Part shown: piece by piece, positions 1 to 38,863 of the stretch
How positions within the stretch are numbered: the first letter of the stretch is position 1
How the letters are laid out: each line of letters opens with the position of its first letter
Source of the DNA: Candidatus Rifleibacteriota bacterium
Lineage (GTDB): Bacteria; Muiribacteriota; Ozemobacteria; Ozemobacterales; Ozemobacteraceae
Assembly: GCA_015232575.1 (NCBI GenBank)
Contig: JADFZL010000001.1
Span: 1-64,000, forward strand
Length of the DNA stretch: 64,000 bases
Direction: 5' to 3'
Notes under the pieces: generated by a model
Databases searched by the model: none
What the model saw: the letters and a program-made list of their open reading frames with translations, nothing else
Told to the model about the DNA's origin: nothing
Translations under genes and position numbers: made by a program

Positions 1-474
1 TATCAAGTCCGGCACAACAATCTTCGGTGTTGAAGGCGACAGCAATGTTGTAAATACCAGCTCCGGTGATGCTCTTGCTGCCGAATTAATGTCTGGGAAA
101 AAAGCATGGGTCGATGGCGCTGAAGTTACCGGTACAATTCAGACCCAAACATTGGCAAATAACAGCCTGAATGTTCCCGTCGGCTTCTATACCACTACAA
201 CTCTTGACGCTGTTGATAGCGATTTAACGGCTGCCAATATCAAGTCTGGCGCGACAATCTTCGGCGTTGAAGGCGACAGCAATGTTGTAAATACAAGCTC
301 CGGCGATGCTCTTGCTGCCGAATTAATGTCTGGAAAAAAAGCATGGGTCGATGGCGCTGAAGTTACCGGTACAATTCAGACCCAAACTTTGGCAAATAAC
401 AGCCTGAATGTTCCCGCCGGCTTCTATACCACTACAACTCTTGACGCCGTTGACAGCGATTTAACGGCAGCCAA
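1..474 (+). repeat. 237-bp in-frame tandem repeats
   Basis: Two consecutive 237-bp units (1-237 and 238-474) are almost identical at the DNA level, with synonymous-type single-base differences; a third begins at 475 and diverges after a few codons into the C-terminal domain. The period equals 79 codons. The array certainly continues upstream of the window. High DNA identity indicates recent expansion or gene-conversion homogenisation. Confidence 0.9.
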
Positions 475-1039
475 CATCAAAAATAGTGTAAATATATTTG
501 GTATTACAGGGACTCTTGAGATTGCTCCTGTACCAAAAACAGGGCAGACAACTTTATACGTAGCAAAAGATGATGGTGATTTGGAAAAGGGTGTGGCTTG
601 GCCATCTCCACGATTTACAGATAACAGCAACGGCACAGTAACCGATAACCTGACTGGGTTAATATGGCTGAAAAAGGCAAATGCGCCAAACGCAACAAGA
701 TCTTGGGCAAACGCACTTATTGATGTGAACAATCTGAACACCACTGGCTTTATGAACGGCATCAATGCATTGGATACAAGCAACAGCGGCACTCACCAGA
801 CAGACTGGCGACTACCGAACATTCGGGAACTGCATAGTTTGATTGACTATAGCCGGAGTAACCCAGCACTTCCCACCGGGCACCCATTCACAAACGTTAT
901 AAATTCTATCTATTGGACGAGTACAACTTACGCGGTTATAACAACCAGTGCCCTCAACGTAACCTTTGCTTCAGGACTCGTCTCTGCAGGTGCCAAAACC
1001 ACTGGATACTACGTTTGGCCAGTTCGCGGCGGACAATAG
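1..1039 (+). CDS. Tandem-repeat protein with C-terminal Lcl/DUF1566 domain (5' partial)
   Basis: The reading frame is open from base 2, so the gene begins upstream of the window and its start and any signal peptide are not visible. Residues fall into near-identical 79-aa units (about two complete units plus part of a third are visible), each containing the segments MSGKKAWVDGAEVTGTI, LNVPVGFYTTTTLDAV and SGATIFGVEGDSN. After the repeats, from about base 590, comes an Lcl C-terminal (DUF1566) domain: FTDNSNGTVTDN, TGLIWLKKA, DWRLPNIRELHSLID, YWTSTTYA and a terminal VWPVRGG. Such domains are usual at the C-termini of exported or surface proteins, where they resemble C-type-lectin/FGE folds and may bind ligands. 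Two smaller DUF1566 proteins lie at 16128-16574 and 16768-17268. The repeat-plus-Lcl layout suggests a surface adhesin, but that is inference. Confidence 0.85.
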   Translation, partial: IKSGTTIFGVEGDSNVVNTSSGDALAAELMSGKKAWVDGAEVTGTIQTQTLANNSLNVPVGFYTTTTLDAVDSDLTAANIKSGATIFGVEGDSNVVNTSSGDALAAELMSGKKAWVDGAEVTGTIQTQTLANNSLNVPAGFYTTTTLDAVDSDLTAANIKNSVNIFGITGTLEIAPVPKTGQTTLYVAKDDGDLEKGVAWPSPRFTDNSNGTVTDNLTGLIWLKKANAPNATRSWANALIDVNNLNTTGFMNGINALDTSNSGTHQTDWRLPNIRELHSLIDYSRSNPALPTGHPFTNVINSIYWTSTTYAVITTSALNVTFASGLVSAGAKTTGYYVWPVRGGQ

Positions 1040-6291: not shown

Positions 6292-6747
6292 TTAGCAAAT
6301 ATTACTTGCATCCCTGAAGGGATCACTTTCTTGGCCATGTTTTTCCCCGAGAGCTTCATTCACTTCCTGATTTTTTATGTATTGTCGAACTTTAGCTTCG
6401 TCAAGCCCAACAGTGTTTACGTAGTATCCTCTTGCCCAGAAGCTTTGTCCTTTAAAGTTGCGTTTGAAGTTGGTATATTTTTCAAAAAGTATCATTGCAC
6501 TTTTACCCTTGAGGTAGCCAACAATAGTTGATATCGAATACTTCGGAGGCACCGTAAAAAAAACATGTATATGATCAATACAAGCAGTACCTTCCAGTAG
6601 TTTTACGCCCTTATACTCACACAACTTTCGCAATATTATCCCTATTTCCTTACGTAGTTTTCCAAAGATGACCTTTCGCCGATTCTTTGGTACCCAAACA
6701 ACATGATACTTGCATTCCCATAACGTATGAGATAAACTTTCTTTCAT
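6292..6747 (-). CDS. tnpA: IS200-type HUH transposase TnpA
   Basis: 151 residues, the usual length for the IS200 TnpA (Y1_Tnp) family. It cuts and rejoins single-stranded DNA at the element ends. The HUH metal motif is seen as DHIHVFF, and the catalytic tyrosine lies in FWARGYYVNTVG; the N-terminal KYHVVWVPKNRRKVI and GYLKGKSA segments are family hallmarks. The start is the ATG at 6747, which has AAAGGAGC just upstream; a TTG further up lies inside that ribosome site. The ribosome site is locked in the hairpin at 6752-6808, as in known IS200 elements. The gene looks intact. Confidence 0.93.
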   Translation of the reverse strand: MKESLSHTLWECKYHVVWVPKNRRKVIFGKLRKEIGIILRKLCEYKGVKLLEGTACIDHIHVFFTVPPKYSISTIVGYLKGKSAMILFEKYTNFKRNFKGQSFWARGYYVNTVGLDEAKVRQYIKNQEVNEALGEKHGQESDPFRDASNIC

Positions 6748-37347: not shown

Positions 37348-37380
37348 AAGTGAAGGTTGGGTTTTCATGATGATTCGCTT

Positions 37381-37464
37381 TCATCTCAAGCGAAGGGAGA
37401 AATCTCCGTGGGGATAGATGTTCGAGCAAAAGATACAAGATTTCTCCCTTTAGTCGAAATGACA
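37381..37464. repeat. Dispersed palindromic repeat, family A (copy R5)
   Basis: Arms TCATCTCAAGCGAAGGGAGA and TCTCCCTTTAGTCGAAATGA enclose about 45 nt; it is followed by the 49-bp tandem repeats before gcvT. Confidence 0.7.
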
Positions 37465-37521
37465 GCAAAATACGGAGTCGGCACCTAACAGTTTAAGGCA
37501 GCGTGTGCGCCCCAAAGCTAT

Positions 37522-37668
37522 GAAAAGATTTTTGTGTTTAAATCAATATATCGAAACTATATCAGCTCTGCAAAAATGTTCGTGTTCTAAATCGCTACAA
37601 CGTAAGTTTATCAGCTCTGAGAAAGTGTTCGTGTTCTAAATCGCTACAACGTAAGTTTATCAGCTCTG
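37522..37668 (+). repeat. Three 49-bp tandem repeats upstream of gcvT
   Basis: Units 37571-37619 and 37620-37668 are nearly identical (each ends TTTATCAGCTCTG); unit 37522-37570 is a degenerate copy with the same ending (ATCAGCTCTG). They lie just before a GC-rich structured leader. Confidence 0.8.
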
Positions 37669-37675
37669 CCAAGGA

Positions 37676-37753
37676 GCGCAGAAACTGCGCGACCGCGGGG
37701 AGTGAGACGGTCGAACTTGTTCGACCGGCGAGAGGGGGCGCGTGCCCCCTCTC
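37676..37753 (+). promoter_or_regulatory. Three-hairpin GC-rich leader of gcvT
   Basis: Three perfect stems stand in a row: GCGCA/TGCGC (37676-37690), CGGTCGAA/TTCGACCG around CTTG (37708-37727) and GAGAGGGGGC/GCCCCCTCTC around GCGT (37730-37753). The last ends 4 nt before the gcvT Shine-Dalgarno (37758-37764). The stretch is far richer in GC than its surroundings. It does not show the glycine riboswitch consensus as far as I can see. It could be an attenuator, a protein-binding leader or a dispersed structured element. Confidence 0.5.
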
Positions 37754-37765
37754 TAAAAAGGAGGA

Positions 37766-38863
37766 ATGATGAAAAAGACACCTTTGTGCGCCGTGCATGA
37801 AAAATCCGGCGCGAGAATGATCGAGTTCGGCGGTTGGTACATGCCAGTACAGTACACTTCAATTATTGAAGAACATCAGACAGTTCGAAACAAAGCTGGT
37901 CTGTTCGACCTTTTCCACATGGGCGAATTCTGGCTGACAGGCAAAGATGCCCTGAAAACTATTCAAAAAGTAGTTACACAGGATATCGAAGCGCTTTCAG
38001 ACAGGCAGATTGCCTATTCACCAATGTGCAGACCTGATGGCACAATCGTTGATGACCTTCTGATTTATCGCTTCAATATGGAGAAGTTTTTTCTGGTCGT
38101 CAATGCATCAAATATTGACAAAGACTTTGCCTGGATTCAATCGCAATTGATTGGCGACAGCAAACTTGAGAATAAATCTTCCGAAACCGGATTAATTGCC
38201 ATTCAGGGACCGTTCGCCCAGGAAATTCTTCAGAAACTTCTCAGACAAAATCTGAAAGCAATTAAGTACTACTGGTTTACAACCGGAATTGTTGCCGGAG
38301 TAGATGCAATAATAAGCAGAACCGGCTACACCGGAGAAGACGGCTTTGAATTGTATTTCGACGCCCAGCATTGCGAAAAAATATGGGAACAGCTCATGAA
38401 CGCAGGCTCAGGCTATGGTCTGACTCCTATCGGACTTGGCGCCAGAGACACTTTGCGTCTGGAAGCCAGACTCATGCTTTATGGAAATGATATTCATGAC
38501 GCAACAACTCCGATCGAAGCAAATCTTGACTGGACAGTTAAATTTGCCAAGGGTCCGTTCAATGGTTCTGATGTTTTCAAAACTCAGAAGGAAAAAGGCG
38601 TTCAGAAAACACTTGTCGGATTCGAAATGGGAAAAGGTCCCGCTCCGCGCCACGAATATCCAATTGTACATGATGGAAAGAAAGTCGGCGTAGTAACTTC
38701 CGGCACAATGGCCCCTACCCTTCAGAAAAACATCGGTCTCGGATATGTTCCACCCGAGCTGAAGGCTATCGGTTCGAAGTTTGAAGTTGAAATTCGCGGA
38801 AAACTTTATCCTGCAACTGTTATCCAAACTCCTTTCTATACAAAACCAGGAGCTAAGAAATGA
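37766..38863 (+). CDS. gcvT: Glycine cleavage system T protein (aminomethyltransferase)
   Basis: 365 residues. ATGATG at 37766/37769 gives two starts; AAGGAGG ends 1 nt before the first and 4 nt before the second, so the second is perhaps the real one. GcvT releases ammonia from aminomethyl-lipoyl-H protein and passes the methylene to tetrahydrofolate. Family segments: [52 protein letters not shown] and [12 protein letters not shown]. It overlaps glyA by ATGA, implying translational coupling. Confidence 0.95.

Follow-up and report, generated by a model that had tools for sequence, protein, structure and literature searches.

Several kinds of known repeat and mobile sequence resemble the DNA considered here. 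IS200/IS605 elements use the lagging-strand template as their insertion target (PMC6006769), and REP sequences with their REP-associated tyrosine transposases (RAYTs) are defined by the tetranucleotide GTAG or GTGG at the base of their palindromes (PMC8266576, PMC6006769). We analyzed a 64,000-nucleotide stretch of DNA (the window) in which the leader of gcvT contains a block of three hairpins preceded by a tandem repeat (Table 1). Our favored reading, to which we give moderate confidence, is that this block represents a small mobile element, non-coding and non-autonomous, that is present in at least 100 copies and moves via single-stranded DNA at replication forks. The mode of movement is best read as IS200/IS605-like or REP-like, but the defining marks of both are absent.

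Table 1. Features of the gcvT leader, in window positions.
Feature	Positions	Strand	Description
Tandem array	37539–37672	+	Locus-specific, directly 5' of the element; 49-bp units at 37539, 37588 and 37637
Element	37673–37760	+	One copy of the dispersed element, GGAG ... CTCTAAAAAG
Hairpin 1 (H1)	37676–37690	+	GCGCAG-AAA-CTGCGC; covaries strongly among copies
Linker	37691–37706	+	GACCGCGGGGAGTGAG; almost invariant
Hairpin 2 (H2)	37708–37727	+	CGGTCGAA-CTTG-TTCGACCG; covarying, with G.T wobbles tolerated and A.C not
Hairpin 3 (H3)	37730–37753	+	GAGAGGGGGC-GCGT-GCCCCCTCTC; near-invariant, two other genera included
3' tail of element	37754–37760	+	TAAAAAG; runs into the Shine-Dalgarno sequence
gcvT Shine-Dalgarno	37760–37764	+	GGAGG; native flank (GGAGGGA in the sister species)
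gcvT	37766–38863	+	Gene with the copy in its leader; glyA- and gcv-like ORFs next

A first-pass annotation had described 49-bp tandem units leading into three perfect stems, the last of them just before the gcvT Shine-Dalgarno sequence, and both features proved real. TRF called 2.2 copies of period 49 at 37560–37669 with a 93% match, and a more diverged third unit from 37539 showed 80% identity. The H1–H3 block folded with a free energy of -49.1 kcal/mol (z = -4.0), none of 200 shuffled sequences was equally stable, and the end of H3 lay 4–6 nt from the AAGGAGG of gcvT. The same annotation was also right that the block does not look like a glycine riboswitch: no Rfam family, that of the glycine riboswitch included, matched the window at gathering level, and at E<=5 only chance-level matches appeared, none of them to the glycine riboswitch family. 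We rejected a riboswitch or other known RNA for want of an Rfam match, and no intrinsic terminator was called at the hairpins. Within the window the hairpin block occurs as a single copy. A second inverted repeat is present upstream of gcvT at window positions 37374–37469 (32-nt arms, 78% complementary, AGATTTCTCCC...GTCGAAATGACA); its motif recurred in 37 of 231 fetched loci, which makes it another dispersed repeat of this lineage. At window positions 1–480, two 237-bp tandem units with a 94% match probably belong to a repeat-rich coding region.

Genome-wide, the block proved to be a dispersed repeat of ~88 bp whose copies are nearly identical. A covariance search elsewhere in the genome, which the first-pass annotation had proposed as a check, gave at least 102 matches in the 7.05-Mb draft assembly (54 contigs; 94% complete, 5% contamination), copies being chosen by similarity. 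BLAST of positions 37500–37765 against the same genome gave at least 82 matches, a count that rests on the best 40 of 172 candidates scored, and almost all of these fell within about 37673–37763. A 61-base pattern with up to 3 mismatches found 60 copies and its reversed control found 0, and H3 alone gave 308 strand matches, which correspond to about 154 copies because H3 is nearly palindromic. Comparison of the copies gave uniform ends, AGCGGAG and CTCTAAAAAG, with no target duplication visible in this genome. We found no description of this repeat in the literature, and no match indicated a phage or viral origin.

Two of the hairpins show compensatory change. In 33 representative copies drawn from three genera, 13 of the 27 base pairs changed on both sides and were still paired, and the covariation score was 0.289, versus 0.099 for shuffled alignments and at most 0.044 when the pairing was slid. 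Variation sat in H1 and H2, both of which covary between copies, and the linker and H3 were almost constant. H2 contained 47 G.T and 3 A.C wobbles, but many of the G.T wobbles are inherited and the count of kinds, 10 versus 2, is therefore the safer figure. The excess of G.T over A.C identifies the strand shown as the folding strand; this tolerance fits folding of RNA as well as of single-stranded DNA.

About half of the sampled copies lie at gene starts. Of 103 array-terminal copies, 51 were directly 5' of a Shine-Dalgarno sequence and start codon in the sense orientation, where the criterion was a start codon with Shine-Dalgarno sequence and an ORF of at least 80 aa (called by simple rules) within 60 nt on the 3' side. 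The same arrangement occurred for 1 of 103 copies on the mirrored side and for 3.6% of random intergenic positions (p = 2e-45 and 7e-18 for the two comparisons). This pattern was first seen in 62 copies and was repeated in 41 fetched independently afterwards (14 vs 0). The distance from H3 to the start codon peaked at 15–18 nt, a range that accounted for 33 of the 51 gene-start copies, and the AAAAAG tail was intact in 26/51 Shine-Dalgarno copies compared with 10/52 others. The downstream ORFs are genuine genes: 28 of 30 contained Pfam domains, which included GATase_5, SAICAR synthetase/AIR carboxylase, HydF, RtcB, NAD-Gly3P dehydrogenase, type II secretion F, glycosyltransferases, and response regulators; no common functional theme was found among them. 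Copies without a nearby gene start had a Shine-Dalgarno-like motif in 1 of 29 cases, compared with a background of 12–15%, and we rejected this motif as the sole insertion target since copies away from gene starts do not have it.

Copies are also oriented relative to replication. In all, 94 of 106 copies lay on the majority strand of their contig, where 71 were expected and 83 was the maximum in 5000 simulations. In a test based on regional GC skew, which is only a proxy for replication direction and was calculated with elements and arrays masked and the copy's own locus left out, the hairpin strand of non-Shine-Dalgarno copies was the skew-leading strand in 45 of 48 cases, compared with a 54:54 split for genes in the same loci (p = 3e-8). 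Shine-Dalgarno copies were on the skew-leading strand in 35 of 46 cases, with 11 against. The gcvT copy is itself an exception, facing against the regional bias and following the direction of gcvT; skew in its region is mostly negative, and the other copies on its contig (C11) face the opposite way. On a second, partly masked contig (C33), orientation broadly tracked skew, except at 312 kb, a point of near-zero skew. In polarity, the skew-leading strand corresponds to the lagging-strand template, on which hairpins can form during replication.

Many copies end a tandem array. In 62 of 103 (about 60%), repeats of the left flank were joined to the left end of the element, with a period that differed from locus to locus (in most cases 40–140 bp) and as many as nine units. 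Each unit combined upstream flank with a 5' portion of the element, and the 3'-most copy remained whole. The breakpoint within the element was not fixed: groups of breakpoints fell after H1, within H2, at the base of H3, and within the 3' arm of H3. Arrays were about equally frequent at gene starts and elsewhere. These properties fit slippage during lagging-strand synthesis, which would copy the 3' side of the element first. At gcvT, the 49-bp units match the left end over only ~10 nt; they are probably upstream flank plus a short remnant of that end and were likely produced by the same array-forming process.

Many copies of the element were found in 3 of 40 genomes of the phylum, namely the source genome (G000) and two from other genera, G009 and G007, with single weak matches in G005 and G012. 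G009 is bacterium CG2_30_54_10, which we take to be a member of Riflebacteria. The sister genome of the same genus (G001) has no copy anywhere, has gcvT and the preceding gene in the same order, and encodes a gcvT protein that is 88% identical, preceded by other intergenic DNA and the Shine-Dalgarno sequence GGAGGGA. The block was also absent from the readable gcvT leaders of G002, G006, and G013, so there is no orthologous leader. In G009 and G007, the core is enclosed by terminal inverted repeats (TIRs), GTATCnnCTCAATAA and TTATTGAGAAGATAC, and some copies, though not all, are flanked by 8-bp target duplications such as GAATGCAT, AAATCTTG, TACTTTAC, and ATTCGCCC. The source genome contained no match to this exact TIR pattern, no TIR pair spanning its copies, and no common left plus right flank around them. 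The presence of the core inside a TIR element of other genera suggests that the core, rather than the ends, is the conserved unit. Terminal repeats of the GTAnCnnCTCAATAA type also surround different interiors in G009 and, in one instance, in G001 (L228, L229, L230, L231); they define a broader family of TIR elements that has the three-hairpin core among its cargoes.

These results divide the proposal of the first-pass annotation, which had offered a new structured regulator or a mobile element and had named many copies at unrelated loci as evidence against the former. The mobile-element half is supported by more than 100 copies at just such loci. The idea of a regulator dedicated to gcvT is not, as copies precede functionally unrelated genes, and the block that was to be sought in orthologous leaders is missing from the gcvT leader of a sister species with the same gene order. 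Even so, the hairpin structure is genuine and shows covariation among copies.

No mobilizing enzyme with matching ends was found in the draft genome. Its only Y1 transposase is an IS200 TnpA (window 6367–6723, minus strand) whose own hairpin ends differ, which scored 23.8 bits against a RAYT model with a cut-off of 80 and has no copies of the element nearby. No Y1 transposase matched in G009, despite its many copies, and the enzyme may accordingly be of another kind, lost, or encoded in missing parts of the drafts. IS91/Y2 genes are present but have no matching ends. Reverse transcriptases were rejected as candidates as well: the genome has a split group II-like ORF and one RT that reaches none of the curated cut-offs, and no element lies near either. 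The former is apparently divided over two frames (L072 1189–1899, G000:C1:177370–177967); the latter, of 519 aa (L071 922–2481), matches group II, retron, and Drt models.

How might such an element spread? In the mechanism that we favor, the three hairpins would form on one strand of the element, and copies at ribosome-binding sites would be preferentially inserted or kept, we propose because the AAAAAG tail joins the Shine-Dalgarno sequence without blocking it. Slippage of lagging-strand synthesis at the hairpins would then generate the tandem arrays, and the gcvT copy would have become the end of a 5' leader, where it may stabilize the transcript or modulate translation; a role in sensing glycine or folate is improbable. 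Against this mechanism, the gcvT copy and the 11 discordant Shine-Dalgarno copies oppose the strand bias, and the matching enzyme was not found. A broader interpretation, which we regard as possible but doubtful, is that the element is a mobile 5'-leader module with two separable placement rules, one for replication strand and one for translation starts, that it inserts repeatedly in sense beside ribosome-binding sites to give dozens of unrelated genes one leader, and that every insertion site acquires a tandem repeat of its own, seeded by the element. If insertion itself were aimed at translation starts, it would offer a natural route to one leader for many genes. Small dispersed repeats are common as such; we know of no other repeat that joins near-absolute replication-strand orientation, precise sense placement at Shine-Dalgarno sequences of unrelated genes, and one-sided, locus-specific arrays.

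Placement and orientation can be explained in other ways. The block could be a cis-acting RNA module in the leaders of a large regulon under post-transcriptional control, with copies kept because a global RNA-binding protein or the ribosome acts on H3 and AAAAAGGAG in mRNA. In favor of this are its sense placement, tight spacing to the start codon, more frequent intact tail in Shine-Dalgarno copies, and covariation with G.T tolerance. A similar idea has been proposed for the TAACTGA repeats that precede start codons in Beggiatoaceae (PMC4679880). We nonetheless consider such a regulon unlikely, because roughly half of the copies lie off gene starts, where the same hairpins are retained and orientation is biased by replication strand, the downstream genes share no theme, the sister species does without the element, and the core in relatives resides in a TIR element away from Shine-Dalgarno sites. 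Both position and strand bias might alternatively reflect selection on the copies that are retained rather than the mechanism of insertion, for example through a skewed chromosome-handling motif or tolerance within leaders. Oriented chromosomal motifs exist, and the lack of Shine-Dalgarno motifs at copies off genes excludes targeting by motif alone. We give this explanation very little credence, however, as selection acting alone would have had to eliminate most insertions for a third of all copies to end up 15–18 nt from a start codon, and the sister species manages without any.

Two further alternatives concern the type of element. The copies could be a decayed classical TIR element (MITE) of a DDE transposon that lost its terminal inverted repeats in the source genome, given that the same core in G009 and G007 sits between TIRs with 8-bp duplications and that these TIRs also occur around different interiors in G009 and G001. 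This history is improbable in our view: no TIR pair spans the copies here, their uniform new ends, in more than 100 copies, argue for spreading as the 88-bp form, and TIR elements alone do not account for the replication-strand bias. A REP family moved by a RAYT would share the high copy number, compensatory palindromes, strand-specific hairpins, and mostly intergenic location (PMC2817692, PMC8266576), but GGAG, GTGAG, or CGAG replaces the GTAG/GTGG head before the hairpins, the sole Y1 enzyme falls far below the RAYT cut-off, and G009 has no Y1 match at all, making this origin quite improbable.

Like IS200/IS605 single-strand transposons and their small derivatives (IS608, ISDra2; PMC6006769), the element has subterminal hairpins specific to one strand and the polarity of the lagging-strand template, and it shows neither terminal inverted repeats nor a visible target duplication; unlike them, it has no Y1 transposase with matching ends and no invariant target tetra- or pentanucleotide 5' of its left end (the best left-flank positions reach 43/58), and it packs three hairpins into 88 bp with a strong link to Shine-Dalgarno sequences. 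With REP/REPIN sequences and RAYTs (PMC2817692, PMC8266576, PMC3116915), it shares more than 100 copies, compensatory palindromes, and a location mostly outside genes, but it has no GTAG/GTGG head, no RAYT gene flanked by the repeats was found in the draft genome, and it differs in having three dissimilar hairpins and a sense placement 5' of start codons. MITEs of DDE transposons are likewise small and non-coding, and related copies in G009 and G007 carry TIRs along with 8-bp duplications, neither of which was seen in the source genome. BrickBuilt, a MITE of Porphyromonas gingivalis (PMC4596501), also contains a tandem array, but one 23-bp unit is common to all of its copies, whereas the unit here is locus-specific and includes host flank. 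TAACTGA repeats of Beggiatoaceae (PMC4679880) similarly precede start codons of many unrelated genes; those repeats are heptamers without hairpins, whereas the sequence at gcvT is a copy of a structured, 88-bp element with a replication-strand bias.
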